From positions 523,162-587,161 of the forward strand of contig JAQOOI010000012.1 of NCBI GenBank assembly GCA_028554645.1: a stretch of DNA of 64,000 bases. The letters run 5' to 3'. The notes under the pieces are model-generated. The model did not search any database and was not told the DNA's origin. It worked only from the letters and a program-made list of their open reading frames with translations. A program made the translations under genes and the position numbers. This stretch comes from Omphalotus guepiniiformis. Its lineage: Eukaryota > Basidiomycota > Agaricomycetes > Agaricales > Omphalotaceae. Shown one piece after another: positions 17,701 to 41,700 of this stretch (positions are counted from its first letter, which is position 1; every line of letters begins with the position of its first letter).

Positions 17701-20700
17701 TCTTGAATGAGCGGCAACGGGTATTTGTTCTTTATCGTTGCTTCATTCAATTTCTGATAATCCTGGACGGGTCGAAGTTTCCCATCTTTCTTTGCCACAA
17801 AGAAGAATGGTGAGGCCATCGGTGACTTTGATGGTCTAATTCGTCCAGATTTCAGATTTTCCTTAATGAACTCATCTAAAACTTTCTGTTCCGAAGGATT
17901 TAATGGATAGACCTTGCAATCTACTGGTGTAATGGCTTCAGTTCAATTGCATGGTCCCAGGGTCTTCGTTCGGGTAAATTTTGGAAATCGGCTTCATCAA
18001 AAACATCCTTGTACTCATTGACGTACTTGTCTGCTTTTGACTCAGTCTTTTTGCCTTTTTCAAAGTTCATACTCCGAAGATATCCGTCCCAATTCAGGTA
18101 AAACAACCGATCCCCTTCTTCCAGTTCTCGGACTTCAGCGTCGGATTCAGGTTTTAGGTAATACGGTATGTAACCACACTTCTTAGGACATCGGTCAAAC
18201 TTTAAAGTCGAGTCATTCCAATCTATATTGGGGTTATGACGTCTTAACCAATCGAGTCCTAAGAAAATGTCCGTTTTGCCTAAATTTGTAACAGCAAGTT
18301 CAATGCGTTCTGCATGATCTCCCATTACCAATCTGACTTCTATGAATCCTTCAATTGAACCGTCCTCGTTTAAGGTACCATCCGCATTGTATACCAGCAT
18401 CTTTACTGGTAATTTCTTAACAGTTAAGCCATGTCGCTCTACGAATTCTTTATTGACGCAAGAACCTGTTGCTCCACTGTCAAGTAATGCCGATGTCTCT
18501 ATCTGCTTGCCACTTTCGATGTCTTCGATTGTAACAGACAGCTTGAGATCTCTTCCTTTAGTACCTTTTACGAACCGCAAGTTTTTCTTAAGCGACTTTA
18601 CGGCTGTGACGGCTTCGCTGATGTCCAATGACCGGATCTGGGCAATCGTGTCTTCTGATGCTTCCCTGGCCCGACAGGTTGGCATCCATGCTCTCAGAAT
18701 TCCCACCGCTCGTTCTGACTCATCCTCCCTTACTCTCTGTGCTATCCATTCTGGTGAATTCGGCGGATAACGTTCTCTCACAGGTTTTGAATCGGACTTT
18801 GTAGATACTGACGCAAATTTATTCTCAGGATGATTAAATACAAAGTGAAAATTGCTGTCCTTGTGATCTACACTAGACTGTTCCGATTTTAACTCAGAAG
18901 GACCTGTATTCACTTCTGAGCTCTGACAAAACCCGTATCCGATTTCAACCAGTTCAAGAACCAGCTCGGTGGCTGTTCTTCTTTCTTCTCTTCCTCCTGT
19001 ACGTTCACCTGCCTCACTCTCTGACCCCGCTTTGCTGGACAATCCCGCGAGATATGCCCCCTCTGTCCGCAATTGAAACACTGCCCATTCCTTCGGGCCG
19101 CGTCAATGTCCATGGGTTTACCTGTACCCCAAAAGGTCGTTCCTGTGGCGTCTCTCCGATCACCACTTCCTGCTGCTTGCTGCGGACTTTGTTCCCTTCT
19201 TGGCGTAAACGCCGGTCTGTTCTGGTTCTTGCGCCATTCCTGACGCCTTCTCCATAGCTGATCAATCTTGATCACTATGTCCTTCCATTCGTCGTACACT
19301 TTGGGTAGCTCATCCCTCGTGTAAATGACATCAATTGTTTTTTCATTAATGCCCTTCTCGATGAGCCGCACCACGTACGGGTCATCCTTCTTGTAATCCG
19401 CCTCCGTCAACAGTATCTCCAACTCCTGGAAATACTCCTCCGCTGTTCCCGCTCCCTGCTTCAACAACTCCACCTTCTCCTGCGCTGTCCTCTGCAGACC
19501 GGAGTCTAGGAACGCCTTGTTCAAGGCTTGCTTGAAGTGCGCCCAGTCCTTCTGCCACTTCTCGTTGTCTTGGTCAAAATGGGTGTTGTAGTAATTATTC
19601 ACCCATCCGTCCACAAGCTTTCTGTCAGCGACTCGAGTTATAAACTCAAATAACCAAACACAATGATCTTAGTTTCACACGAGTAAGAGAAAAGCAGAAA
19701 GTGGAATTGAGAAAAGAGACAATACAAGGAAGTATGCTAAGTACAAGTCTAAACTCGAGGAGTTATTGACAAGATCGAAGCTAAAGAAATATCTACCTAA
19801 GCGGACTTGTTATATACGTAAATAAAACCCTAAACCCTGGGCTATAACCCTTGACTAATCCACCGTGTGTCTACCATGAGTTCGATCGCCTCAAGCGTTT
19901 CATTAATGATCGTGATCGCCTTGAGGTCTACATGCTTGATCTCGATCATCATGCTACCTACGTGTGTATTTAATATAACCCTAGATCTATAACTTAAGAT
20001 GCTATCTACTGATAATAAAAGTGTCTATATGTACAAACAATGAGATAAGATGAAAAAAGAAAACATTCGTAACATGACCCCCTCCTTAGGGACGATGTCC
20101 CCATCGTCCTAACTTCACTGCTAATGCTTCTGTCGGCATCTTCTTCGTTTCTACTACTTCCGTACATGCTTCAGGGATAGGGCGTAACAATGATGTCGGG
20201 AATAAGGAAATTGGGACCTCAATCTTTCTTAATTGAGGTGGTCGTGGTTTAGTGGGGAATTTTTTATGGAACTCTTCGATTGCTTCTTTTGCGTTTGCAA
20301 GGTTTGCTAATGGTTCCCATGTTTGTTCATGCCGCGAGTATCCCTTCCATTGAACTTTGTATCCAAATCTCCCTCCCCTATATTTCCCTGAATCTACTAT
20401 CTCTTCCACTTCGAACTCCGGTTCTTCTCCTTCTATCACTGGTGGCGGATTATCATTCTTAGGCTGCTCGGGGAATTCAGGCGGATGATAGGGTGACAGT
20501 AGAACTTTGTTAAAGACTGGATGTATCCTCTTCCAAGTCTTCGGTATCTTTAGTTGATACGACGTCGCTCCAACTTTCTTTACGACTTCAAAAGGACCAA
20601 ATCGTTTATCATCCAACTTCTTCATTGGTCGATCAGAAGTCAGGTTTGTCGCTTCAAGCCATACTTTGTCATTAGGCTTATATTCGACTGATGGTTTCCT

Positions 20701-23700
20701 CTTCTTGTCATAATACCGAGTCATGTCTTCCTTTGCCTTCTTAAGCGCTGCCCCTACTTCGTCCCTGATCTTGATCATCTTATCGGCAAATTCCTGTGCT
20801 GTGGGATTTGCCGACGGAGTTCTTGGAGCTGTTCCCTTATACGGATGTCGTCCCATATCCGCATAGAACGGAGTGACACCCGTCGCTGAGTGTATTCTGT
20901 CATTCAACACAAACTCTGCTGTCGGTAACCATTCATGCCAGTCGTTCTGATGTTGATTGATGAATAACCGGAGATAATGTTCAATCTCTTGGTTCATCCG
21001 TTCCGTCTGTCCATTCGTCTGTGGGTGATATGCCGTTGTGAAACTCCCCTGAATGCCTAATAACCGGTATAGTTCCTTCATGAATCGGGAATGATATTGA
21101 GGTCCCCGATCATGAATGATCTTTCTTGGTAATCCATGTATAGGAAAGATTTTGTCCCTATAGATTCTGGCCATTCCTTCAGACGTTAACGACATGTGTG
21201 TGGGTACCAAACGTGTTCGTTTGGTGAAATGGTCCACAGTCACACTTATGGCATTAAAACCTCCAGCTTCCGGTAGTTCTCCGATCAGATCCGTTGTAGT
21301 GACTATGAAATGAATGAGAGAGATACTCAAATGAGCACAATCCAACTCAAATCAAAATGATGTAGGTTGAGGTGTGACTGGCGTTGTCAGAGATTCCGCA
21401 CAGTTAGACGCAACAATTGAACTTTGAATCTGCAGGGTTACAGATGTCTTTATCTCAATCTGGGTGAAAAATGGCAGAGGGTATCTCAAAACACAAGATT
21501 CAGACAGAAGGTAAGGGTGGTTTTCAGGGTTCAGGAGGGAATCAGGACAATCAATCTCGATGTTTAAACTCGATCCAATGGTCAGACAATGCAGGGAACA
21601 GTTTCAGATGCAGCACAGACAGTTTCAGCAGGCAGATTCAGCACAGACAGAACAGTAGTTTCAGCAAAGATTCAGTATCTCTTTCAATTTATCTGCCACA
21701 AGGGACTTTACAGAAGTTTTCACAACTGGATATTTCTCGAACTGAACTCTAAAGAGCCAGGCTATATTTCGTCTAAGAAGGTTTTCCTGCTTTGGCTTGT
21801 AGCTTTGGGCAGTACTTGCTTAAGAAAATCTAAATAGATACTCTGTAAGCTATATATACTAAATCATAAAATCAAACATATATCTCGAAATTAAAAGAGT
21901 AATCTGAACAGTAAATGAGTCAAAAGTAAGTAAGTATCAATTGAGCAGAGATTGGATTCTTTTTAGGTAGTTTTCTAGGTAATTTTCCAGTTAGATAGTC
22001 AAAATGTAGGAACTTTGGGTATAGATTGGTATAAAAACAGAAATATATCGCTTTGTCCGCGTTCTAGGTGTGTTAGGGCGTACCCAGGGTATCTAAATAA
22101 AGGTCCAGCACATGTAAATAGCAACCAGTATCCTGACAGGTGACATTCTCCTCAGTGCATTGCAAATCTGGTCCCCTATAAGTTTCTCCAAAATTGGCAC
22201 ATCCTCCTCTACTAGGGCAGCATTAGGAGTTGTGTAGAAGCTCTAGAGCTTATCTAGACCCTGCTTCATCGTTTCTATCAGCCACAGTAAGGTACAGTAA
22301 CTGTTTATTTCAAGTTTTACCCCTATACATCTCTTTTTGGTCAGATTTGTACTCAGGTTATATTTCTTGTTTAGGATAGCTCTCAGCTTCTCCTAGGACA
22401 GTATTCTATCCCATAGTTTCGTCTAAGACCTCCAATTAGAGCGCCTTTGTCTTTCATCAAGTTCAGAGGGTTACTGAATTTCAGAGAGATACTCAGATCC
22501 AGAGAGATACTCATTTTCAGTATCTAACTCCTTCCAGCATGAGTATTGAGTATCTAACTCATTTGTGCAGATGTAACTTTTGAATCTACTTCCATTATTA
22601 CACAGATTGGCATTTCATCTCAGTGACATTATATCCACATAGTACTCAATGTACAATATTTCTCTGGTAATACAATCTTTAAGATTGCCCATATTCTCAG
22701 CATTCAATCTTATAGTGCCAACTTAGTTAGCAAGACCAGCTGGAACTTTTGATCAGTCCAAAGGACTTAGATAGTTGTTCAATTGAAGTGAAAATCCATC
22801 AACCCCTTGGATTACAGTCAACAACACTTGGTAGAGTCTCTAGTTATTAGAGGGTGGGTCTGACCAACTCAATCTGGTATGGAACATTGGAATTCCAACA
22901 CATCTGGAGAGGCATAACTAGTATCTCTTTGTATAACCCATTGGTCACAGTTGCTTAGTACCAGATTCAGTACTGTAGCAAATACTACACTTAGGTATTG
23001 TGAGTACAAGTATGTTTCATGTCTTAACTAGCAGTCTGGGGTGACTCTAGTCCTTTATGTTCAGTTTCCAATGCTTGAACCTTCCATATTTACTTCAATC
23101 TGATAGATTTCAGTACTGAAAGGCTTTTTGACGCAACATCTCCCCCAAAGTAAAATAAGATCGTCCCCGATCGTACCAGATTGGCCAAAATCGAGTTAGA
23201 TACAATTATTACTAGCAGATTGGTCATAGAAGCGCATTTCGTACTGTTCAATATCACAATATCACGTTTCACGGACTGCCATTAGGCAAAACTTTTCTCG
23301 ATTGATCGCCAGTCAATACATTTACATCGGCATGTGACGGCAATGTCAGACTTCGGCGAAACCCGCAATCTACTTCTGTCGAAGTTTCGACTTAAACAGA
23401 CAGTGATTCTTGTTTTCTCTTCACATCTCACTTCGTCCCCCGATGGATGACTTTTCAAGGCAATTGGCTTCCTCTATCACTCTCAGTAGGGAGCCTTCCG
23501 AGGTACCGGTAAGTCCTTTTTAATTCCTTTCTCTCACGCGCTGCTTTTCACAGTGTGTCACATATATATTCGAGAACCGCTCTCAATTGACGGCCTCTTT
23601 CTTTTCTTTTCCCTCTCACAGCTCTCAGACATGAACGAAGAGGATTACAAGGCTCTTTCCGCCATCGTTTCAAGACTAGGCGACTTGGACCGTCGTTTAC

Positions 23701-26700
23701 GAGATCAATCGTTTAAGGATTTCGGCAAGGGTCTCAGGTTGAAAACCATTACCTCCGCCTTTGACGACTTGAATCTTGCCTTGGTAGGCACCAATTTCTT
23801 TTCATCTTTGTTATAGCTAACCTCATCTTTACAGACTCGCGTTGCTTTGACTTTCAATCGGTGCCAGCGGGCACATACACATCTCCCCGACTATTTTACT
23901 GGCTCCTTTCTTTCTGCATGCAATCTCGCCTTATGGCTACATCAGGCAAAGCCAACGTCATTTATTGTGCCGCCCTGGGGGCTAAATCGCGCTAAACTTG
24001 ACTCTTTCTGCCTCAAGTATACAGTAAGTATCTCTCAGACTGGTTTTCATTTCTTTTGCTAACTCTTTACAGCTTCGCAATTTGTGGGAACCACTACCTC
24101 CATTTCCTAAGCTTAAGCAAACTCCGCAGCTCGAGGAAGACAACGACGACGATGAGATCTTACTCCCGCCTCTCGCCACACTTGCTTCGTCCGCCAAGGT
24201 TGCTCGCGCTGAATCTTCGAAGGTTTCGGCACCGGTTTCAAAACCAAAGCCAAAGCCAAAGCCAAAGGCCAAGACTAGTGTAACGCCCTTACCGGGTCGT
24301 TCGGTATGTCTTTTCTTTTTGTTTGAAGAGGTCCTTCTTATTTTATCATTTTTAGATGAAACGCAAGATCTCCGACGTTGAAGCCACGGCCGAATCTACT
24401 GAGCTGACTGACGACGACGACGATGATACTGACTTCGAGTCCGAGAACTCTGAGCCTCCGGTCAAGAAGTCTCGCGTTTCTGAGGGTAAGAAGCCTGCAG
24501 CTGCAGCTTCAAAGGTACGTTTCCTTATAGATTTATTTATTCTTTTCTCATGTTTTCTTACACAGGGCAAGGGTAAACAGGTGGTCAAGCCAAAACCGAA
24601 GATCCGGAAGATGCGTGTGGAAGAGCCTGCCGATGACCCAGCGTCTCGAAAGACTCGCTCCAAGGCGACTTCAATTACTGTTCCTGCATCCAGCGACGAG
24701 GAAGAGGAGAAGAAGGAGGATGAGAAAGCAGTCAAGACTGAGGGTACTAAAGCCCCAGTCAATCTTAACGTCGACTTCGAGGCACCTCTATGGGCTTCTC
24801 GCGCTGATTTCTCTACTTCTTCTGTTTCTCTTGCTCCGGGCACTCGTTACGAGGCCCCAAATCTTCAAGTAAGTCTTGTCATTTCTTTTTATTTCATTTC
24901 CTTTTACTGACCATGCCTTTCCTTAGCGATCGGATGGACGAACACCTCAAAATCGTGCGAAGGAGGACTTTGAAGCGATACCCGGTAAGTATCTCTTTTA
25001 TTTCATTTTTCTAGTGTTTGTCTAACGGTTCTTTTACAGGCCGTGTTGTCTTTGGATGGCCTTATGGCCGTCCTGTTACTTTACAGCAACTCGTTTCAGT
25101 CAACCGCACATTCGATAGGGTGAGTATCTTTCTGACTCGAGACTAATACCCGCTAAATTTTCTTTTCGACACTCTTTTAGTTCTTCGGCGACTCCATTTG
25201 TGCTGCCTGCGTCGGCGGTACTCACACTGAAGGTAGAGAATGCCGTCCTCAGTTCAACAGCAAGACTTTCGAATGGCGCTGCGCGACTTGCGCGAAGGAC
25301 AATCATACCTGTAGCTGGTCGTACGGTTTGGAAGGCAGCGATCAGTTGCGATGCCTTTCATACACATTGGCTCGCAGCGGCAGTACAGGTAAGTATTCCT
25401 TTCATTTCTTTAGACATCTTTTACTAAAGGTTCTTCGTTTCTTAGTTGTCTCTCAGGAAGCTGAGCAGTTGCAGATTCTCATCGACACCTACGAGGACAT
25501 GCAGAACAGCGTCTCCGCGCAGATGCGGGCGATGGAACGGGTACACCGAACGATTTTGCAGCGTCAAGATCATATCAAAGCTTCGTGTCGCGATCCTCGT
25601 CTCGTTTTACATCAGGTCCAGACTGGCGACCCGTCGTTCGACTATTCGGACGAACAGCTCAAACTACTGGCTACCGCGCTTGGATGGGACATCAACCTGG
25701 TGTCTCGGGCCAGCTACATCGCTAGGAACGAAGCAGGTCATTTCATCGTGGTGGATCCAGAGGTCGAGCCGCAGCCCGGTCCTTCCAATATCCGTTCCAC
25801 TCCCGTTGCTACCGTCATCGACGAATCGCCTCAGGCGGTCGGTGCCTCGCAAGTCACGGTCGAAGAGGATGAGGACAAGGAGGACGAGCTGGAGGAGGAG
25901 ACGACGGGCAGGGTACTGGTGCCAGAAAGCAGTCCACTAGCTGGGAGGGACGATCCCCTCTCAGAGTGACTTTCAAGGCTCGGGTGCACGCATAGTTCGT
26001 ACCCCTTTTTCCCTTTACTTTCTCCATCTCTCAGTCCCAATCTCACAGATCTGTCGCTTTCTTCGCTTGGCTGGGACCTGCCGTATCCGTTCGCATTTCG
26101 TCGCGGGTAGCCTTGGTGTTCAACACACCAGGTTGCCCAAATATATAAAAATTTTATACCTCGCTTTTTCTGTAGATACTCCCTGTACTTACTTTATAGT
26201 AGTATAGGTCGAAGTATCTCTTATTATAGTCCTGAGCTTCTATGCTCAAAAATACATATTTCATTTTTCTTGGCATGAATCTGGTGTGAAACATAAGAAA
26301 TCATATTGAGAGTCTCCTTCAAATTGAGTATCTAACTCGATTCTAGAGGGAAACAATTCTTTAAATGACTTAAGCCCACAATTTTCAATAAGTATCGTTT
26401 CTTTTTGAGGATACATTGAATTTAATAAGTCCTTTCTGTCAAGGTTGAGAGCTCTCGGTTACTCGGCAATGCTATTCGGCTAAGTCCTCTGCGGTCAAAG
26501 CTGTCTAGATCTCCAGATTTGAGATATTTGAAATTTCAAAAATTCAAAATTTTGGCCTTGTAAACTTTGTGTGCTCTCTCCCCCCAAGTAAAATTAACTT
26601 CAACGTCCCCGTTGATCAATCTGCTACGCTGGCTAGGCCTCATTGTGCCTGTTTGAACAGCATAGGAGTAATGACCAACTTGCAGATTTAGACGGGGTAG

Positions 26701-29700
26701 ACCAGATATAAAAGGTGCAGCGCAGATTCAGAACGACTCAGCACCATCTATCCCTTGGTTCTACAACCCCTCCACTTTTATCATTTCTCTATCTCTACAT
26801 TTTACAGTTATGGCCCCTAAAGGTCCCAAGACTTGGCCTGAGCGTCCTGAGTGGGTTGCCACAACGCAGCGATATCTTTCTCGAGCTACTGGAGCCATGG
26901 AGGCCAAAGATGCGGATACTGAACTGCTTGGGATGCTTATTACAGCCCTTGCTAGTCATCTTGTAAATGTTCAATCTTTGATTCCAGGTCCAGTATCTAA
27001 CTTGATTTCTTATTACAGAAGAAGTCTCTTCCTGCATATGCAGTTGCTAAGTCCGAGGAAGCGTTCACTTTGTTCGACAAAGGTGTCAATCTGGTCGCAG
27101 ATGCAGTCAAGAAGTTCCCATCTGTAGGTGAACCTGACACTTTCTCCGCCATTAAAGCTTTCCGGGACGACTTGGCAAAGCGCAGAGAGACTCTTAGTGG
27201 GTCTAAGAAGCGCAAAGTACGTTTTTATTGACCATCCCTCTCATTTCGAGTATCTAACTGCCTATCGGTGTGTAGCCAGCTAAAACTCCCGAACTTATTG
27301 AGGATGACGATGATGACGATGAAGAGATTGAGGTCATTACTGGTGACGGAGACGTTACTGTAAGTATCTAACTCCTTGGTTACTGAGTATCTAACTCAAA
27401 TCCCAACATGGTCTTTCTTTTCTCAGATGGCAGATGGACCTTCTCTTGGGCTCTCTGCGTCAATCCACGCTCCCAATAAGGATAACAAGGACTCTAGCAA
27501 GGACAAGACCAAAGGTTCTTCCACTACTACCACAGTTCATAAGTCTTCCAAAGTAGTAATCACTTCTCCAAGGGTAAGCAGATTTATGTTCAGAACTGTT
27601 TATTCGTTTCTCTAGACTGATGTACCATGGTAACTTTGCAGGCTACCTCAGTTGGACCCAAAGATGTAAGTTTTTAGTTCCATCTGGAGATATTCATGCA
27701 GTTTCATGTACTGACTATAAATGTTTGTGTAGAATGAACCTATTCCTGAGCCCCACAAGGTGATTGTCATGAAGAAGCCTCGTATTGAGAACCCAATCGT
27801 CAACCTTAGAGAGGAGACAGACCGTGAGTAGTCACCCAATCTGCGGCTTTTTCGAGTATCTAACTCAATTATCCTGCAGATGAGCGCAAACTCCGGGAGA
27901 GTGGAGAAGAGATTGTGACTCGTATCACTGCTCTGTTCCCTTTCATGGACTTGGACCACTTCTCTCCTGAGGTTCTTCAATCAATTTCCAACTTCTTGAA
28001 GACAGAACTCAGTGTTCATCAACATGCCATTCAGTATCATCATTCTCAGTACAGATTTGCCTACAAGGAGTTTTCCCGTCTGGAATTGCTCCGAAGACAG
28101 AAGGAGAAGGCTTACAGGGCCAACCAGAGTCCCTTGGAGTCTGGTCCAGGTACTGCTGATGATCCAGCTCCTTTCCATGCCTTCCCATCTGCAGACATTT
28201 TCTGACTTTAATGTTACATCTGGACATCTCAGTATCATTTATGGGCAGTTTACACGGTATTGGTACATCGTATAGGACATCCTCAGACACCCTTTATGTT
28301 TATCTTAGTAGTGCATACTACTGTTACCCACTTTTTACTTTCATCTGCAGTTAGGTAGTCACTTTTCAGTGTCTATCTCTTACTTTGTTCAAATATAGTG
28401 TGTTTATCATTTATTTTGTGAAGATTGAGACCTGGTCTGGACTGGAGCGTCCCAATCTGGTTCTTCTTCATCTGCATCGTTTGCAGATTGTAGTTCTTCA
28501 TCACTGGACTCATCAAGATCTTCATCTTCAGCAGGAATTCTCAGTTGAGGAATACTGTCAAAGATGTAATCTCTCTCAAGTTCAGAGTCTAACTCATTGT
28601 TATCATTGACCATCTCTTCTAGCTGTTCACTAGTTAGGTCTATAAGTTCATGAATGTTCTCAGGCAGTTCAATTGGTTCATATCTAGCTACATGGGGTAG
28701 CACTCTGAAGGCAGCAACCTTTTCTCTGAGCACTGTACCATCCATCTGGGCCACAATGTAGGATCCCCCTTTGGTTCTCCTTATTACAATCATGGGTCCC
28801 AGGTATCTAGGATACATCTTTCTGTCCAAGTTCTTCTCAACTTGTGTATTTCTGACTTGTATAAGTGTACCAGGTTTGAAATCAAAGTCTCTGATAACAT
28901 TTCTGTATTCTTCTTCATATTGTCTAAGAGTCTCTTTCTTGGTTGTATCAATTCTAGATATCATCTCCTGCACATGGGTTCTATGCTTAGCTAGAGCTTG
29001 AGCTCTGTAGCCAATAAGTTCCTCATATGTCAAGATTCTATCTGGAAGTTTCACTAACCATGTAGATTCAACAATATCCAAGGGTAGGATAGGTTCAGCT
29101 CCAGTAACAAGGAAGTATGGTGAACATCCAAGTCCTTTTCTAGCTGTAATTCTATCTGCCCAGAAGACATGTTTGAGAAACCACCACCATCTCTTTAGAT
29201 CTCCACCTGTAGCTTTTGCCAAGGCAGTTCTAATGTCAAAGTGGGCTCTCTCAATCTTGCCATTTGCTTGGGAATTGTAAGGAGATATAGTAATTCCTTT
29301 AATTCCATATTTATCTTCTAGCCATTTAAGCATAGCTCGCATCTGGGGTGCATTATCAGTTACTACTTCATCCGGACATCCCCATCTGCATATAATATCA
29401 TCAAAGAACCATTCCCCCAATGATCTAGCATTGTCAGATCTTAAGGCTCTTCCTTCAGACCAGGATGAGAGTGCACATCTGCCATGTACAACATCCTTGC
29501 AACCATTACTTGGAGGTGATACTTTAAATACATCCACATGAATCTTCTGAAACAGGGAGGGAGTGTGTGTAAGAGTGGGAGGAATCTTCAACAATTCTAA
29601 TTTTCGGTTCTGGCAGATTTGGCAGGATTTGACAAACCAATTGACATCTCCATTCAAATCTGGCCACCAAAAACGCTTCTCTATGAGAGCTTTTGTTGCA

Positions 29701-32700
29701 AACATTCCTTTATGTCCCAGATGGTCATGAGCAGCATGCATCATGTACATCCTTTTCTCTTTAGGCACAACCAGTCTATGCTGGCCTCCTGTATCATCAT
29801 TCCTTCTATAGAGTCTCCCATCTCTGTCTACAAAGAACTTTACAGCCCTGGAAATGAACTTTTTCATAGCAGTCTCACCTAGGTGAGCTAGAGGCTGATT
29901 GCCCTGCAGGTACCAATCTTTGATTAGGTCGAGTTGTTCATCCAGTTCCTTTGTAGATGCAGATCTGTGATCCTCTCTATATGGGTGTTCATGTTTCCAT
30001 TCAGTACCTCCTTCAGGTATAACCAAGGTCTGTGCAAACTGCAACATCGAGTTAGATACTGGATGTTGAATTGCTAACAGCTCTCTAATGGAATTCAAGT
30101 GACGTTCTTCTTCAAGAGCTTCTTGCAAATCGTCCTCAAAGTCGTCTATTGACTTTGCAACTTCCTGCAAGTAACCACCTCGAGTATCTATTTCATCTTT
30201 AAAGGCTTCAAAATCAAAGGGTACCTCAGATTCACCATCTCCCATTCTGAATTTCACCGGCAGACCATCATCTTCATCAACAAATGAATCCGGATCTCTA
30301 GATGCCGCTCTTTCAGTTGGTATGGTTCCTCTAGGTGGTCTAGATAGTCCATCTGGTCCCTTATGTTCAGTGCCCTTGATGTGTACCAAGGTGAAGTGGA
30401 ACTTCCTTATTTCTTCAATCCATCTGTTTATAGTTGCATTGGGACCACTACTGGGTTTGTCAAGCATTCCTTTAATATAGCTTGCATCTGTTTCCACAGT
30501 AAGATCCCTACATCCATATGTCTGGTAATATGTTTGTTGTAAGGCCAACATCAAGCCATATAGTTCTCTCTTGGGTTGAGAAAACCTTGCTTCTCTTTCA
30601 TTTAAAGTAACGGAACCCATCCAGTTGTAGAACTTTTTCTTTGAATCTGCAGGGTCTCTCTGATATAGTTGGAAACCTACTGCCATCCAGGAAGTATCTA
30701 CTGAAAGGGTGATTCCAGTACTTAAATCATAGTCAATAGGACGAAGTGCCGGAGCATTTCTGATCCCATCTTTAATCATTTCTACAGCTTCCAGTTCTGC
30801 AGGACCCATTTGAAAAGGTACATCTCCAGTTAAGATTGTCAAAGGTTTTGCTTTCTTGGCATAATCCTTTATGAACATCCTCATCTGACCAGCAGTGCCC
30901 AAAAATGACCGGATATCTTTCTTCTCAGACCATTTTGATGCATCACAAGTCAGGACAACTTCAGCTAGCCTTTCCACTGGCTTTTCTCCTTCATAACTGA
31001 CATGATGTCCAACAACATCTCCTTCAGCTACACAGATAAAAGCTTTAGTACCTGCAAAGGTACCACCAGCATGTTTCATTCTTTGCACAATTCTGTTCAT
31101 ATTCTGCAGATGCTCCCACACAAATCTTCTGATGCCAGAATTTTCAGGGATAGTTTCATAACCTCCATCTGCAGTTTCATATCTGCTGACAGGCCCTTTT
31201 ACTGGTACATCATCAATGTAAGGTTTAGTTACATGTGGAATTTCATCTCTGAAGATATATGTAACATCATCATGATAGATAGGGACAGAGTTTGTCCAAC
31301 CCATAGGTAACTTCACTAATCTATGTGGGCCAAAAGGTGTTTGGAAGGTTGTAAGATCTCTTGAACTTTCATCAACCAGCCTCTCATCATACCCAACAAA
31401 GATATCCAGTAATCCCAAACATGCTCTTCCAGAGAAGCTTCTAGCTATATCTGCAGTTGCAGGAGGAATTCCTGAATGTTGAATAGTCACTTTATTGAGT
31501 GGTTCTAAACTATGGACCAATCTTAAGCTTTTTCCATCTTTCTTTAAGACACAGAACCATCTGGATCTATAGGATGAACTAGAAGGCTCATATACACCAG
31601 CATCTATTTTGTCCTTAATCATTTTACACACTTGATCATAGATCCCTGGAGGTATAGGAATATTCCTTTCTACCCAAGGAGTGTGTGGTAACACTGGAAA
31701 CTTTACTGGAGGAAAGAACTCTGTATTAAAGGTTCCTCCTTCAGATGCTTCCCATGCAAATGCTTTTTCTTGGACTTTCATAAGATGGTGTACAAGTTTC
31801 ATTTCTTCAGGCCATAAGAAACCTTCATTATGATTCTTGTCTACAATTTCTTTTCTTTCTTGAGAGTACCTCTCACCAGGAGTGAAATCTGGAGGATGAG
31901 TAGGTAACCCAGGCATATCTTTTAACGGATCTCCAATTATTTTTCTTTCAATCCGGAACTCCGCAGGTAAGGTAGCTTTAACAGGTTTGACCTTAATAGC
32001 AACTGGTTTGTACTTTCTAGAAGCCAAAACAGTCACCAATCTGGCCATTTTGTTGCCATTCTTATCTCTACTCCATCTGGGTCTTGAAGATTGGACTGGT
32101 TTCGGTTCTCTTTTGACCGTTTTACCCTTATTCATCCTCTTTTCAGTTCCAGATGCGGGTTCCGAAGTGTGATTAAGTACCGTGCAAGTATCTAAGTCTG
32201 AATTCTGAGTATCTAAGTGCTCTTTTGAATTCAAATTTAAATTTTCTCGCCAGGTACAGAACACTTGTTTCTTTTCTGAGTCTACAGACCGATTTAAATA
32301 CGATCTAACCGAATCTGCAGCCGCTATATCGTCTTCTCTTATGATGGATTCAGCTGCAAACACAAATGCCTCAGCCTTTTCAGGTTCTGAAAACAATTCA
32401 TTGTCTGGCAGCTTATATCCAGCAATTGTGGCATTGCCATCTTCATCCATTTCAATACAAACAGCTACCTCTCCCTGATCTCTTATCAGTTCATTGAGGT
32501 CCGATGAAAATTTTGAGAGTCTCCCTCATTTTTCACAGGGACACTCGCAGATTTCTGTGTTTCTGGGACAAGCTTTGGTTCACCAGGAATAGGTTTAACC
32601 TTAATTCCTCTACCTCTGTCATATGTTCCCATTGTACACTTCATTCCACTGTTTGGATCTGTAATGGTGATCTCTTGTTCTCCAGTTTCAAAGTTTCTGA

Positions 32701-35700
32701 CTACACTGCTTGTTAACACATCAAATGGTCTTCCCAAAAGAACATCATAAGGCACTTTATCTATTATGTGAATCTGCATATAGATAGTTATTTCTCCAAA
32801 GGTAAATGGTACATTTCTTGCTAGTCCCCTAGTAGCCTGTAATTGACCATTTGCACTTTGCATATGGATCACAGTCTCTGGGTCCCATCTTAAACCAAGT
32901 CCAATAGCTACTCTTGTATCCATGGACACGATTTGAGAACCACTATCAACTACTGTCTCAACTTGTTGATCAGAGTGATTAATCTTTGGGTAGATTGCCT
33001 TTAGACTGTCAGTCTGGCTGGCTACTATAATGATCTTGTTCCTCTCATCTGGAGGTACATCTTTCTGATACTGGTCCACAACATCCTTGTGTACCACTGA
33101 GCCTTTCTTAAGGTCATCTGTGTCTTCATCTAGGACAATAAACACATCTTCCCTTTCATAGGCCATATCTTCAATAAAGACCATATAATTTGCCTGTACC
33201 AGATTGACATCTTCTTCTGGTAGAATACCATCAGGATCATCTTCATCCCTTACTTCATGAACAAAAGCCTTTACAGGCCGCTTATACACCCTGTTGTTCT
33301 TCAATTTTCTCTGCATAATCTTCTGAAGTGCCGGAGATATAGCAATGAGGTCCCCACTACTTATATCTATCTCAGATCTAAAGATTTTGTCTGCAATTTC
33401 TTCTGCTAGACCCGGTTTGAATAGTGAGTTTCTAAGCTTGAAATCAGGCTCAGATTTACGTGGAGGCTTTGTGTATACAATAGCATTCCTTGTGTCAATA
33501 TTCATTCCATCTTTAGTTCCAGATTGAGCTCCTTCAGTCTCATTTGACTTGTTCTGGCTCCCTACAGGCATTCCCTTTGGTATAGGTGGCCTATCTATTG
33601 CCTTTACATGATCAAACGGACGGTTAGATACTCTCCGTGCAACATCGTTGTTATTTTCAGAGGGAGATTCAATCTCCTCAGTGTCAGAATCAACGGGTAG
33701 TTCAAAACGAACGGGCTCTCTTCTCATAGCAGGGGGTCTGTATTTCTCCCTTTCAGATGGTCTTAGTGTAGGTAGTAACACTTCAACTCTCTTTTTCTTT
33801 ACAAGTTTATTTTCCTCAGGAGATTGACCTGTTTTGTGAGAAGGATTCTGAGTATATACAGCTTCTTCACCAATCTCCTTCATTGGAAACTCTAGTTTTT
33901 CGACTCAGAGTTGTTTTCTCGTTTCAAAATCTGCTTAGTTTCAGATTTAGCTGCTGGTGCCAGATTCTGCAAAGTATTGCAAACCTGACTGAATTGAGCA
34001 ACAAGGCTGTTGATAGCATCTAATGAACTACTTTGAGAGGGACCTGCTATAGCCGAATCCTCATCTTCAAAAGCATACAAGTTCTGGTCAACATGAGAGG
34101 AAGGTTGTTCCCATCCATGTCTTTTGGCAATTTCCTCAATCTTCTCTTTCTTAGACCGAGTATCAGACGGATCAGCTCTTGGCCAATATACTCCATCTTT
34201 CAATGCCCATTTACCAGCACTATTCTTGATCATCCACCCCAACCTGATAAATCTAAGTTGATGTGGACAGTCCATAGATCTATGTCCAGGCTCGTCACAC
34301 ATATAGCAATTGGAGTCAGCATGAGTATTGTTATTCACAGATGACATCTGGGACGATCTTTGTACACTATTGTGTCCATTAGAGTTCATTCCAGGTCCAG
34401 ATTGGGAATTTGGAGCATTCATGTTCATCCTAACTGAGCTAGAAGTTGCTTGGGTCATTTTTGCCAAGTTAGCAACTGTCTCAGATAGCTTTGCAAGAGC
34501 TGCCAGATTCGTTTCCTGGGCTTGTCTAATCTGGTTAAACTGGTTCTGGTGACTATCCACTGTTGCAGACAATTTCATCGCCCACTGATCTGGTTCTGAC
34601 TTCACAGTAGATGCTACTTGGTAAGGATCATATAACTTCCTTGTAGCATTCTGCTCAGTTGTTGGGAGTATCCTAGAGTATCCTTCTGCCAGATTTGGAC
34701 CATTCAAGAATAAACCAAAGTTGTATCCCCCTGCTCTTTTTACAGAACAGAGTTTTTCAGCCTCAGACATTACATCTTTCAGAGTAAAAGGGTCATCCTC
34801 TCTCTGAACTTGTAAGTGGCCATTGATCACTTTGTTTTCTAAGCGGTCCAGAAGTTTCCTTCTGAAGGGTTCATCTAGTGCACTCAAGAAACCAGCTACA
34901 GCTTCTGAGTTTGATACTACAGGTGTAGTACCAGAAGATAGTTTCTCATACTCAATCTCATACTCTCTTTTAAATGCCATCAGTTTCTGAATAGCACCAA
35001 GCACTATGAGCTTATATGCATCAATGATAGCATACAATCTTTGTCTAGATCCCAGTCCTCTATCTGCAGATTCAGGGAAATTTTTCATTAATGCCTCTTT
35101 GAAAGCATCCCAATCCAAATCTTTAACAGCTTGAAGCCGTTGAAACTCTTCACGGGTATGGAACTCCATATATCTGAGTGCCAACATCACTTTAGCCGCA
35201 TCTGTTTTAGTTCCGGTTGACACAAAGATGCCTTCCAGCTCTGCCAACCATGCAACCAATTCAGATGGATGTTTCTTATCGAAGATGGGGGCCTGCTTAG
35301 AGACTTTAGGTAGTTTCTCATTTTGCAACTCTTTAGCTGCAGGAACAGGAATCTGCATTCCTGTTGCATTTCCAAAAATGAAGATCTCTTCCATCTCAAC
35401 AGGTCCTTGGGTAGGTCCTTGTTGTTGGGGAGCTTCATTCCCAGTAGCATTGTCATGAGTAGACATATTGTTTCTCGGGTTCCTTATTATTTTAACAGGG
35501 ATTCTTTTATGTGTCAAGGCAAAATATTGAGGACTGTTAACAAAGTTCCTCTTATTTTTCTTGTATCTAGCTGAGAGTTCAGATAAATCTGGAGGTGTAT
35601 TCCGTTCAGGAATCGTACTTAGGGACGAAAGAGACGAAAGGGAACTTGAATCTGGTTCAGGTATAACTTCTCTCTCTTTTCCTTTGGAACTTTTCCTTCT

Positions 35701-38700
35701 GGATGACTGGTTCAGTGACAATTCTTCTGTTCCAGCTCTCTCAGAATTCTTAGTCTTTCTAGGACGTGTGTTTCTCTGTGAGCTGCTAATTTTGACAAGC
35801 AAACTCTAAGTTATAAAACTTATAGATGGTTCAACAACTTCAAGGAAATTGTTGCTAAGTGAGGAACAGGGCAAAGTTCAACACAGAAAAAGTCCAGATT
35901 TATTTCCAGACACGTGTAAATACACAGATAGTTCAATTATCAAGTCTAAAGCCACCCCTCGCGGTGGGCTCCAGATGTAGTGACTATGAAATGAATGAGA
36001 GAGATACTCAAATGAGCACAATCCAACTCAAATCAAAATGATGTAGGTTGAGGTGTGACTGGCGTTGTCAGAGATTCCGCACAGTTAGACGCAACAATTG
36101 AACTTTGAATCTGCAGGGTTACAGATGTCTTTATCTCAATCTGGGTGAAAAATGGCAGAGGGTATCTCAAAACACAAGATTCAGACAGAAGGTAAGGGTG
36201 GTTTTCAGGGTTCAGGAGGGAATCAGGACAATCAATCTCGATGTTTAAACTCGATCCAATGGTCAGACAATGCAGGGAACAGTTTCAGATGCAGCACAGA
36301 CAGTTTCAGCAGGCAGATTCAGCACAGACAGAACAGTAGTTTCAGCAAAGATTCAGTATCTCTTTCAATTTATCTGCCACAAGGGACTTTACAGAAGTTT
36401 TCACAACTGGATATTTCTCGAACTGAACTCTAAAGAGCCAGGCTATATTTCGTCTAAGAAGGTTTTCCTGCTTTGGCTTGTAGCTTTGGGCAGTACTTGC
36501 TTAAGAAAATCTAAATAGATACTCTGTAAGCTATATATACTAAATCATAAAATCAAACATATATCTCGAAATTAAAAGAGTAATCTGAACAGTAAATGAG
36601 TCAAAAGTAAGTAAGTATCAATTGAGCAGAGATTGGATTCTTTTTAGGTAGTTTTCTAGGTAATTTTCCAGTTAGATAGTCAAAATGTAGGAACTTTGGG
36701 TATAGATTGGTATAAAAACAGAAATATATCGCTTTGTCCGCGTTCTAGGTGTGTTAGGGCGTACCCAGGGTATCTAAATAAAGGTCCAGCACATGTAAAT
36801 AGCAACCAGTATCCTGACAGGTGACATTCTCCTCAGTGCATTGCAAATCTGGTCCCCTATAAGTTTCTCCAAAATTGGCACATCCTCCTCTACTAGGGCA
36901 GCATTAGGAGTTGTGTAGAAGCTCTAGAGCTTATCTAGACCCTGCTTCATCGTTTCTATCAGCCACAGTAAGGTACAGTAACTGTTTATTTCAAGTTTTA
37001 CCCCTATACATCTCTTTTTGGTCAGATTTGTACTCAGGTTATATTTCTTGTTTAGGATAGCTCTCAGCTTCTCCTAGGACAGTATTCTATCCCATAGTTT
37101 CGTCTAAGACCTCCAATTAGAGCGCCTTTGTCTTTCATCAAGTTCAGAGGGTTACTGAATTTCAGAGAGATACTCAGATCCAGAGAGATACTCATTTTCA
37201 GTATCTAACTCCTTCCAGCATGAGTATTGAGTATCTAACTCATTTGTGCAGATGTAACTTTTGAATCTACTTCCATTATTACACAGATTGGCATTTCATC
37301 TCAGTGACATTATATCCACATAGTACTCAATGTACAATATTTCTCTGGTAATACAATCTTTAAGATTGCCCATATTCTCAGCATTCAATCTTATAGTGCC
37401 AACTTAGTTAGCAAGACCAGCTGGAACTTTTGATCAGTCCAAAGGACTTAGATAGTTGTTCAATTGAAGTGAAAATCCATCAACCCCTTGGATTACAGTC
37501 AACAACACTTGGTAGAGTCTCTAGTTATTAGAGGGTGGGTCTGACCAACTCAATCTGGTATGGAACATTGGAATTCCAACACATCTGGAGAGGCATAACT
37601 AGTATCTCTTTGTATAACCCATTGGTCACAGTTGCTTAGTACCAGATTCAGTACTGTAGCAAATACTACACTTAGGTATTGTGAGTACAAGTATGTTTCA
37701 TGTCTTAACTAGCAGTCTGGGGTGACTCTAGTCCTTTATGTTCAGTTTCCAATGCTTGAACATTCCATATTTACTTCAATCTGATAGATTTCAGTACTGA
37801 AAGGCTTTTTGACACAACACCGTTCCTATGACTTCCCAGGGACCTTGTGGAACATTGTTTGTGACTAGTGTTCCTGTTGGTTTGGTTCGATGAATCTTAG
37901 TGGCCTGACACTTTTCACACCCTTTAACGTATTTCCGTACATCCTGAGTGATTCCCGGCCACCAATAGTTTCTCGTCACCAATTCCATGGTTTTGAACTG
38001 CCCTGGATGTCCCGTTAGAATGGTATCATGATGTAGTCCGATGATCTTTCCCCGTAACCTATTATCAATAGGCACGTAAATCCTATCCTGCCACGTCACA
38101 ATTCCTTCCTCTGATTCGACCCAATCCTTCTCTTTTCCTTCTAAAGCCTTATTCACTAGATTATCCCGCACTTTTGACTTTTTCTTGATAAGATCTAAGA
38201 TCTCGTCCTCGGGCATCTCTAGTCTGTTGATCGAAAAAAGTTCCGGCTTTAAAAGTACCACATCCTCATTGTCTTTCTCTCCCGTCTCATGATTGGCCAT
38301 CCTGGACAATGCATCTGGCTTTCCCATTGACTTTCCGGGTTTATGAATCAACGTAAAGTCGTATTCGGATAATTCAGTGATCCATCGGGCTTGTCGGCGA
38401 TTCAATTTCTGAGGCTTTTTGAAATACTGAAGATTTTGATGATCTGTATAGATCTCAAATGACTCTTCTGCACCCATCAGATACTGTCTCCAATCTGCTA
38501 AGGAATCCATAATGGCCATCATTTCCTTATCATAGATCTCATAATTATGTTCCGTTTCATTTAGAGATCTAGATCTGAACGCAATAGGCCACCATTTTTC
38601 CATCTATCTTTTGCGATAAGACAGCTCCGTTCGCATAATCTGATGAATCTGCCTCGACTCTGAATTGTCCATGATCACGGGGTATGGTTAGAACAACTTC

Positions 38701-41700
38701 TTCGGCAATTCTACTTTTGAGTTCTTCGAATGCCTGCTGTTGTTGCTCTGTCCATTCCCACTTTGAATTCCCGGTCAGTGATGACAATGGTTTCGCCACT
38801 TGACTAAATCCTCGGATAAATCGTCGGTAGAAGTTGCAGAAACCCAAGAAGGACTGTACTTCCTTCTTGTTTCCTGGTATTTTCCATTCTTTTACCGCTT
38901 TGACTTTCTTTGGATCCATCCGCACTTGTCCATTTCCTACAAACACTCCAAGGTACTCAACATTACTGGTCTCGAATTCGCACTTTTCAGGTCTAAGATA
39001 CAACTTGTGTTGTCGTAATATGTCTAACACCTGTTTTACAATTGACTTGTGCTCTTCGATTGTATTTGTGAAAACCAAGATATCGTCTAAGTACACCATG
39101 ACGTGACCTTCGTTGATCAAATCCCTTAAGATATGATTCATAAACGCTTGGAAGGTCGCCGGAGAATTTGTAAGGCCAAAGAACATAACCGTTGGTTCAA
39201 AGAGCCCCCGATTAGTCCTAAATGCCGCCTTCCACTCATCACCTTCTTTGATCCGGATATTATTGTATCCCCATCGAACATCCATTTTCGAAAATACTTT
39301 CGAATCCTTCAGTTTATCAATGAGTTCTTGAATGAGCGGCAACGGGTATTTGTTCTTTATCGTTGCTTCATTCAATTTTCGATAATCCTGGACAGGTCGA
39401 AGTTTCCCATCTTTCTTTGCGACAAAGAAGAATGGTGAGGCCATCGGTGACTTTGATGGTCTAATTCGTCCAGATTTCAGATTTTCCTTAATGAACTCAT
39501 CTAAAACTTTCTGTTCCGAAGGATTTAATGGATAGACCTTGCAATCTACTGGTGTAAAGTCTGGCTTCAGTTCAATTGCATGGTCCCAGGGTCTTCGTTC
39601 GGGTAAATTTTGGAAATCGGCTTCATCAAAAACATCCTTGTACTCATTGACGTACTTGTCTGCTTTTGACTCAGTCTTTTTGCCTTTTCCAAAGTCCATA
39701 CTCCGAAGATATCCATCCCAATTCAGGTAAAACAACCGATCCCCTTCTTCTAGTTCCCGGACTTCAGCATCGGATTCAGGTTTTAGGTAATACGGTATGT
39801 AACCACACTTCTTAGGACATCGATCAAACTTTAAGGTTGAGTCATTCCAATCTATATTGGGATTATGACGTCTTAACCAATCGAGTCCCAGGAATATGTC
39901 TGTTTTGCCTAAATTTGTAACAGCAAGTTCAATGCGTTCCGCATGATCTCCCATTACTAATCTGACTTCTATGAATCCTTCAATTGAACCGTCCTCGTTT
40001 AAGGTACCATCAGCATTGTATACCGGCATCTTTACTGGTAATCTCTTAACAGTTAAGCCATGTCGCTCTACGAATTCTTTATTGACGCAAGAACCCGTTG
40101 CTCCACTGTCAAGTAATGCCGATGTCTCTATCTGCTTGCCACTTTCGATGTCATCGATTGTAACAGACAGCTTGAGATCTCTGCCTTTAGTACCTTTTAC
40201 GAACCGCAAGTTTTTCTTGAGTGACTTTACGGCTGTGACGGCTTCGCTAATGTCCAATGACCGGATCTGGGCAACCGTTTCTTCCGATGCTTCCCTGGCC
40301 CGACAGGTTGGCATCCATGCTCTCAAAATTCCCACCGCTCGTTCTGACTCATCCTCCCTTACTCTCTGCGCTATCCATTCTGGTGAATTCGGCGGATAAT
40401 GTTCTCTCACAGGTTTTGAATCGGTTTTTGTAGATACTGACGCAAATTTATTCTCAGGATGATTAAATACAAAGTGAAAATTGCTATCTTCGTGATCTAC
40501 ACTAGACTGTTCCGATTCCGACTCAGAAGGACCTGTATTCACTTCTGAGCTTTGACAAAACCCGTGTCCGATTTCAACCAGTTTAAGAACCAACTCGGCG
40601 GCTGTTCTTCTTTCTTCTCTTCTTCCTGCGCATTCACCTGCCTCACTCTCTGACCCCGCTTCGCTGGACAATCCCGCGAGATATGCCCCCTCTGTCCGCA
40701 ATTGAAACACTGCCCATTCCTTCGAGCCGCGTCAATGTCCATGGGTTTACCTGTACCCCCAAAGGTTGTTCCTGTGGCGTCTCTCCGATCACCACTTCCT
40801 GCCGCATTTTGCGGACTTTCTCTTCTTGGCGTAAACACCGGTCGGTTCTGATTCTGATTCTTGCGCCATTCCTGACGCCTTCTCCATAGTTGATCAATCT
40901 TGATCACTACGTCCTTCCATTCATCGTACACTTTGGGCAACTCGTCCCTCGTGTAGATGGCATCAATAGTTTTCTCGTTAATGCCCTTCTCGATGAGCCG
41001 CACCACATACGGGTCATCCTTCTTGTAATCCGCCTCCGTCAACAGTATCTCCAACTCCTGGAAATACTCCTCCGCCGTCCCTGCTCCCTGCTTCAACAAC
41101 TCCACCTTCTCCTGCGCTGTCCTCTGCAGACCGGAATCTAGGAACGCCTTGTTCAAGGCTTGCTTGAAATGCGCCCAGTCCTTCTGCCATTTCTCGTTGT
41201 CTTGGTCAAAATGGGTATTATAGTAATTATTGACCCATCCGTCTACAAGCTTCCCATTCATGAAAGAGATCGCAACATCAATCCTTTCATCGTCGGTCGT
41301 GATACCGTTTTTCTTATCACGGATATATGTGAAGAGTCTTCGACGCCAATTCTTGAATTCGGATTTGACGCCAGTGAAGTTATCGGGTTTGTTGAGGAGT
41401 GATTTTCCTCGCGGAGTTTCGATTTCAGACATTCTGATAGGAGTATGAGGTCGGGTAGAATAGGGAGATGATGCAAGAGATTTGTATGAAGGTGTGACAG
41501 GTGATGGAATAGTGGTTTCTTCGAAGAGACTGCTAAAGTTCCCCCAAGATTCCGTAATGGTAGAGTTTACTTCGGTCCGTCAGTAACCTCACGAAGAGAT
41601 TTCGGGACCTTTTCTGCCTCTAATAAACGAGTTCCTAAATCCGTGCTCACTTGCTGAGTAAACCTGGGCGTGCCTTTCTAGGAGTGCACCTCGTTCCCCA

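Follow-up and report, generated by a model that had tools for sequence, protein, structure and literature searches.

In Boty/BcGypsy1, a retrotransposon of Botrytis cinerea, the antisense gene brtn lies between pol and the 3′ long terminal repeat (LTR), according to the parts consulted of three papers (PMC7264820, PMC8365987, PMC4227169), and the plant elements Grande (gene23), RIRE2, Retand and PvRetro13 are described in excerpts of PMC7264820 and PMC11963269 as carrying antisense additional open reading frames (orfs). The role of such antisense accessory genes is not yet determined, according to the consulted section of a review (PMC7264820). The window analysed here, a stretch of 64,000 nucleotides of the Omphalotus guepiniiformis genome (assembly GCA_028554645.1, contig JAQOOI010000012.1, positions 523,162 to 587,161), contains a Ty3/gypsy element of 16,525 bp (21295-37819; gag, protease and pol on the minus strand) with two genes on the opposite strand. 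The element is probably, if not securely, a recent and complete member of a giant Ty3/gypsy lineage in which two intron-rich antisense accessory genes would have their own promoters, spliced mRNAs and a nuclear role.

The two genes occupy the interval between pol and the polypurine tract (PPT) beside the 3′ LTR, with the following structures:

23443..25969, plus strand: gene 1, antisense, 10 exons, 659 aa, between pol and the PPT
23443-23508, 23622-23783, 23835-24023, 24073-24303, 24356-24514, 24566-24868, 24927-24984, 25040-25119, 25181-25388 and 25446-25969, plus strand: exons of gene 1
25181..25388, plus strand: exon 9 of gene 1, with the seven-cysteine cluster C-x2-C-x10-C-x12-C-x2-C-x6-C-x13-C
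26810..28205, plus strand: gene 2, antisense, 7 exons, 340 aa, between pol and the PPT
26810-26962, 27019-27216, 27276-27359, 27427-27573, 27642-27665, 27733-27823 and 27880-28205, plus strand: exons of gene 2

The original prediction, made from the letters of the window alone, had claimed two antisense genes of ten and seven exons with unbroken frames of 659 and 340 amino acids, and both were rebuilt from the sequence exactly. The nine introns of gene 1 and the six of gene 2 are all of the GT-AG type and 49-113 bases long, and the rebuilt frames contain no stop. The word GAGTATCTAACT is repeated in introns of gene 2 (27217-27275, 27360-27426, 27824-27879) and partly in the introns of a related subfamily, B, described below.

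A block alignment of 41 rows allowed gene 1 to be scored in 32 (the window and 31 loci) and gene 2 in 22 (the window and 21 loci). The whole frame is kept in 25 of these rows for gene 1 and 16 for gene 2, four of the six failing gene 2 rows apparently being just cut by the end of the aligned stretch, and the splice dinucleotides are retained in nearly all rows (a single AT..AG in L026, L043 and L047; gaps in the truncated copies L044 and L048). Frame preservation is far beyond chance. Counted by copy, with broken copies included, 54 of 68 exonic insertions and deletions are multiples of three, versus 3 of 142 in introns; counted as distinct events, the figures are 11 of 25 and 2 of 36. The Nei-Gojobori mean rates of nonsynonymous (dN) and synonymous (dS) substitution were 0.019 and 0.213 for gene 1 (dN/dS 0.090; 25 intact rows, 300 pairs) and 0.0055 and 0.074 for gene 2 (dN/dS 0.074; 16 intact rows, 120 pairs), both far from the ratio near 1 that the original prediction had named as telling against it. 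For the C-terminus of pol the corresponding values are 0.0033, 0.033 and 0.101 (10 rows, 45 pairs), so that the two antisense proteins seem about as constrained as pol. Conservation on a par with the other element proteins is a mark of LTR elements with antisense additional orfs (aORF-3R), and both genes show it in comparison with the pol C-terminus of these ten rows. The high divergence of gene 1 raised the question of positive selection or hypermutation, but both were rejected on account of the dN/dS of 0.09 and the patchy differences with ordinary base changes.

The same alignments bear on whether the antisense unit matters chiefly as RNA, through double-stranded RNA or self-limitation, with the proteins secondary. 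Such a role is discussed for the antisense orfs of plant elements (in part of PMC7264820), and overlapping transcripts from both strands are to be expected from the layout, but third codon positions of gene 1 vary far more than second positions (0.151 versus 0.018), which points to selection on the amino-acid sequence and makes an RNA role unlikely as the main one.

The genome (42.5 Mb, 80 contigs) was searched for copies. Part-gene searches gave 42 matches for gene 1 and 41 for gene 2 (the best 40 of 60 and the best 40 of 64 candidates, respectively), or 40 per gene once the second pieces of a place, two matches for gene 1 and one for gene 2, had been merged with the first. At least about 40 copies per gene are therefore present. 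Among the best 40 of 144 candidate pol copies, a strict rule finds both genes at the spacing of the window in 28, gene 2 only in four, gene 1 only in one and neither in seven; on individual reading, nine of the 12 remaining copies have at least one antisense gene, or a more diverged relative, roughly where it would be expected. Both genes accompany pol in C33, where one match is partial, and in C42, where gene 2 is intact (locus L045) though absent from the matches listed. Gene 2 is partial but in place at C63:356229; in place at C18:1115342 and C46:290438, with gene 1 about 20 kb off; and present at C59, with no gene 1 among the matches listed. Diverged relatives of gene 2 are in place at C71:544971, C71:516517 and C78:630480. 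Of the last three copies, two have a gene 2 at a distance of 10-12 kb (C14:474364, C20:2285182) and one has neither gene (C65:1613556). Later insertions would fit the distant partners. The earlier claim that the genes move with the element is thus borne out by most of these copies, and the contrary pattern, family copies lacking the genes while the genes occur at unrelated host loci, did not appear, host-locus status having been checked for part of the matches.

Could the antisense block be another transposon inserted once in a normal Ty3 element, or an artefact of assembly? In four of the 40 copies, 12-21 kb separate pol from the closest gene 1, and a copy of another family, C, has quite different antisense genes at this place; against this, the same order recurs in dozens of copies across many contigs and in subfamily B, and the repeat search within the element found no additional repeat pair of at least 60 bases, so that nested insertion or misassembly can hardly be credited.

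The remaining parts of the element are:

21291..21294: target-site duplication CCGT, left copy (flank comparison and empty site)
21295..23138, minus strand: 3′ LTR relative to gag-pol, 1,844 bp (repeat search and LTR alignment)
23139..23149, minus strand: PPT1, reading TTTGGGGGAGA on the gag-pol strand and adjoining the 3′ LTR
23159..23172, minus strand: tentative hairpin GATCG-GGGA-CGATC just upstream of PPT1 on the gag-pol strand (weak support)
26577..26587, minus strand: PPT2, an internal PPT-like tract
26600..26615, minus strand: tentative hairpin TCAACG-GGGA-CGTTGA on the gag-pol strand beside PPT2 (weak support)
28407..32450, minus strand: pol orf, 1347 aa, with reverse transcriptase (by similarity), ribonuclease H (RNase H) and integrase
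32486..33883, minus strand: aspartic protease orf, 465 aa
33892..35802, minus strand: gag-like orf, 636 aa, with a zinc knuckle (profile scores weak: E 0.0038 for CCHC, E 0.079 for the Ty3 capsid)
35955..35973, minus strand: primer binding site (PBS), a PBS-like stretch starting TGGAGCCCACC, beside the 5′ LTR
35976..37819, minus strand: 5′ LTR relative to gag-pol, 1,844 bp (repeat search and LTR alignment)
37820..37823: target-site duplication CCGT, right copy (flank comparison and empty site)

The element has the hallmarks of Ty3/gypsy retrotransposons: LTRs, a PBS at the 5′ LTR, a PPT at the 3′ LTR and a short target duplication. The original prediction of such an element at 21295..37819, with a PPT at the 3′ LTR and perfect target-site duplications, agrees with the LTRs, PPT, CCGT copies and empty site found here. 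LTR-versus-LTR alignment shows only two mismatches over 1,844 bp, which indicates a recent insertion. When the flanks were joined with a single CCGT (300 nt), the best 40 of 85 candidates matched at 98-100% across the junction, one of them from base 2; these matches establish that the element boundaries and the CCGT duplication are real, and that the empty site is intact elsewhere in the same genome. The element was inserted in the pol region of a different gypsy element. Further gypsy elements are present on both flanks (13507-21290 and 37824-41432), and a neighbouring copy of the interrupted family matches the joined flanks at 14566-14865, inside an orf with a chromodomain. Fourteen bases of the PBS-like stretch (35957-35970) recur at 156 places genome-wide, many of them adjoining related elements. 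The discriminator base U of the PBS is taken here as a hint of tRNA-Cys, a candidate primer only.

The pol orf has Pfam matches to RNase H at residues 576-684 and to the zinc domain of integrase at 895-950, with the protease orf upstream, so that the Ty3/gypsy order of protease, reverse transcriptase, RNase H and integrase is present if the reverse transcriptase is located through its similarity to other proteins, a part of them with PF00078; the RVT_1 profile itself found no match in the pol orf. No chromodomain, the mark of chromoviruses, was matched in pol at E values up to 1. The named fungal proteins nearest to pol are those of Lentinula edodes (69%), Moniliophthora perniciosa (64%) and Armillaria ostoyae (60%), which points to a probable mushroom-forming host in the Agaricales, and identity is as high as 74% among unnamed proteins; pol queries against collections of viral contigs and genome contigs gave no matches.

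If the window element and its own family are called A, its relatives in the genome comprise subfamily B and families C and D. Subfamily B (L051, L052, L054-L056) has pol 90-92% identical to that of A in the main alignment (the N-terminus of L051 is 68% identical over 204 aa), an LTR alignable in part only (the inner LTR is 77% identical over about 512 bp at three loci), and the same order of LTR, PPT, gene 1, gene 2 and pol. Gene 1 of B is 61-62% identical to that of A over 643 aa at three loci, and gene 2 of B, as modelled by a freer gene finder at L055, is identical at 241 of 329 aa (73%). All 15 intron positions are common to A and the four aligned B loci, with small splice-site shifts at a few, as would be expected if the introns of antisense genes stay in the genomic RNA. 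Gene 1 was found in three of four B regions examined; in L057 the pol of another element is there instead, and a gene 1 exon lies further out at C75:530238, as after a nested insertion. At locus L053 (3361-4030), a diverged LTR (73%) lies inverted directly behind a gene 1 relative, a rearranged copy.

In family D, delimited by pol identity and orf length (14 rows), a relative of gene 2 lies antisense behind pol (E 8e-10 in the one copy read), and in at least ten of the 14 rows the cysteine exon of gene 1 is matched antisense on the 3′ side of pol (33-35%, E 1e-6 to 1.1e-5); in L059 that match lies beyond an inserted element, and the other four rows have none there among the matches listed. Family C (22 pol rows) has LTR pairs about 13.1 kb apart and, in the one copy read (L058, 832-5700), a 4.9-kb antisense region behind a related pol with two predicted multi-exon genes that do not clearly resemble either gene 1 or gene 2. 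The automatic gene finder misplaces some exons even in the window, and the gene models of families C and D are therefore rough. Further relatives of the cysteine exon (31-43%; for example C18:311376, C20:1858886 and C46:88672) include 12 listed with a frame of 76 aa; these weak matches may perhaps represent more element families with a gene 1 protein.

Given the dN/dS values, the presence of every intron position in subfamily B and the relatives in a third family, the gene pair is, as far as such comparisons can tell, an old and selected part of the element lineage. The alternative that it is passenger cargo, two host genes captured once and hitch-hiking without use to the element, is in keeping with the lack of Pfam similarity to retroelement proteins in either gene and with the gene capture by LTR elements that part of PMC7264820 treats as generally known. 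It is nevertheless quite improbable, because dN/dS does not exceed that of the pol C-terminus, two subfamilies share the genes down to their intron positions, a third family has diverged relatives of them, and no free host copy of either gene was recognised among the minority of weaker matches whose surroundings were read.

Within the reading favoured here, that of selected accessory genes, each antisense gene would be transcribed from a separate promoter, located immediately downstream of a PPT-like module, and the host would make a spliced antisense mRNA from each. The full-length sense RNA would hold the introns in reverse complement, so that they would remain unspliced and survive reverse transcription. 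Both proteins may, less certainly, act in the nucleus for the element itself: the gene 1 product might be a nucleic-acid-binding or chromatin-binding protein that controls LTR transcription, silencing or integration, and the gene 2 product, also basic, could be its partner. The gene 1 protein has basic and acidic stretches, the seven-cysteine cluster and a coiled coil; the basic stretches include PVKKSR in gene 1 and KKRKPAK in gene 2, which are presumed here to be nuclear signals. All seven cysteines of exon 9 are invariant in 12 of 12 aligned rows, not counting the broken copy L049, in which one is lost. Basic stretches and invariant cysteines suggest nucleic-acid or chromatin binding. They would equally suit proteins that serve the particle or integration, by way of nuclear import or target choice, instead of regulating transcription or silencing; the plant review proposes nuclear roles without deciding, in the section consulted (PMC7264820), and the insertion of this element within another gypsy element is a single case in favour. 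Such a role is a possibility of lesser weight, and regulation or silencing of LTR activity is ranked somewhat above it.

The histories of pol and the antisense genes appear to be uncoupled. Between A and B, dS is 2.1 for gene 1 and 1.3 for gene 2 (L055), both near saturation, and 0.46 for pol (L052). Since pol is little diverged and the antisense genes and the LTR are much diverged, the antisense genes track the LTR more than pol, which would fit an action of theirs on the LTR. Measured per 150 bp among copies of A, diversity is 0.05-0.12 between about 23600 and 26300, with values mostly of 0.01-0.03 to either side (one bin in gene 2 has 0.05), and the differences between single copies are patchily distributed. 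The simplest reading is an exchange of blocks among element lineages, for example by template switching. In gene 1 (copies L009-L050), synonymous divergence (0.21) is far higher than intron divergence (0.06) or the diversity at the LTR end (about 0.01).

PPT2 lies 233 bases before gene 2 and matches PPT1 at 17 of 18 bases over 26577-26594; it is retained in four B loci amid poorly kept surroundings and has a counterpart in D. An ancestral element with gene 2 only, ending at PPT2, was considered for family D and rejected, as the cysteine exon of gene 1 lies beyond its PPT2-like tract; the stretch beyond that tract occurs once per element among the matches listed and is thus probably not an LTR. 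A short inverted repeat stands beside each PPT-like tract (23139-23172, 26577-26615, L059 near 2669, L058 near 5702), with different stem letters and a loop of GGGA, GGGG or AGGT. The hairpin is the best fold for PPT1 of A, PPT2 of A, PPT2 of B and the D tract (z -0.9, -1.0, -2.05 and -1.8, respectively), and another structure is best for PPT1 of B (z 0.05) and for C (z -1.5). The PPT-hairpin module is a lead, not a proof. A more elaborate proposal, advanced only tentatively, is that in giant Ty3/gypsy elements of mushroom-forming fungi the genes form an ancient antisense regulatory block, a nuclear protein with a cysteine cluster and its basic partner, which has stayed with one type of LTR as subfamilies exchanged pol, each gene standing behind a PPT-hairpin module, one of them an internal second PPT.

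Several observations weigh against selected genes with a regulatory role. Seven of the 32 gene 1 rows are broken, and the dN/dS values come from intact rows only, which may lower dN slightly. No intact gene 1 model was obtained at the B locus L051, and a strict builder gave a gene 2 model at none of four B loci. The Pfam-type searches recognised no domain or fold in either protein, and the predicted structures of exons 9 and 10 of gene 1 are poor (mean predicted local distance difference test scores 53 and 59), a predicted helix at 2-46 being the sole confident part of the exon 10 model. Gene 1 has also diverged at synonymous sites, so that its tie to the LTR may just reflect exchange of pol, and to prefer transcription over integration or particle formation is guesswork based on composition.

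Comparison with known proteins sets the gene 1 cluster apart. Zn2Cys6 domains of the GAL4 type have the spacing C-x2-C-x6-C-x5-12-C-x2-C-x6-8-C. The gene 1 cluster likewise has two C-x2-C units and six cysteines in similar order, but its first loop is x10 instead of six, it has a seventh conserved cysteine, and it had no Pfam match to Zn2Cys6 at E values up to 10. Among the matches listed in a protein-database search there was no homologue of gene 1 or gene 2 beyond this genome, though fungal relatives of pol were present; the queries are partly of low complexity and multi-exon genes are fragmented in contig-based predictions, so this is not read as absence. The antisense HBZ gene of human T-cell leukemia virus 1 (HTLV-1) is spliced. 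Its product is nuclear, according to part of PMC11963269, and the likeness to an antisense nuclear regulator of a reverse-transcribing element is one of layout only.

The layout itself, with antisense genes between pol and the 3′ LTR in the window, in the 28 pol copies with both genes and in subfamily B, has the features of the aORF-3R class. The plant elements resemble this one in their long internal region and suspected nuclear role; their antisense proteins differ (Retand has a TRP28 domain), and the consulted descriptions mention no internal PPT or multi-intron gene pair (PMC7264820, PMC11963269), the word "intron" not occurring in the part of PMC11963269 available. Boty/BcGypsy1, likened by description only, is also a fungal Ty3/gypsy element with an extra antisense gene between pol and the 3′ LTR, but a single such gene is reported and its gag-pol has a chromodomain (PMC4227169, in part), whereas two genes and no chromodomain were found here. 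The consulted portions of two fungal surveys, PMC3248453 (LTR Retrotransposons in Fungi) and PMC4905642 (18 fungal genomes), do not mention "antisense", and no description of a multi-intron antisense gene pair in one element was recognised in literature searches that lay largely outside subscription papers; part of PMC5408684 was also drawn on. The original prediction knew of no described fungal family with this pair, and these searches agree for the intron-rich pair; brtn of Boty is a precedent for a single fungal antisense gene, so that the kind is not wholly new.

These results indicate that genes with many introns can persist as stable, selected components of retrotransposons if they are antisense, which bears on how retroelements carry genes. 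If the more elaborate proposal of an ancient antisense regulatory block is true, fungal retrotransposons would have a retrovirus-like regulatory layer whose orientation preserves introns through reverse transcription. Dozens of copies, and related genes in no fewer than three families or subfamilies, make this one genome an unusually rich natural data set, usable for asking what antisense accessory genes do. Single antisense genes at this place are already known from Grande, RIRE2, Retand and Boty (brtn); what is new here is the presence of two intron-rich antisense genes together with a conserved internal PPT.

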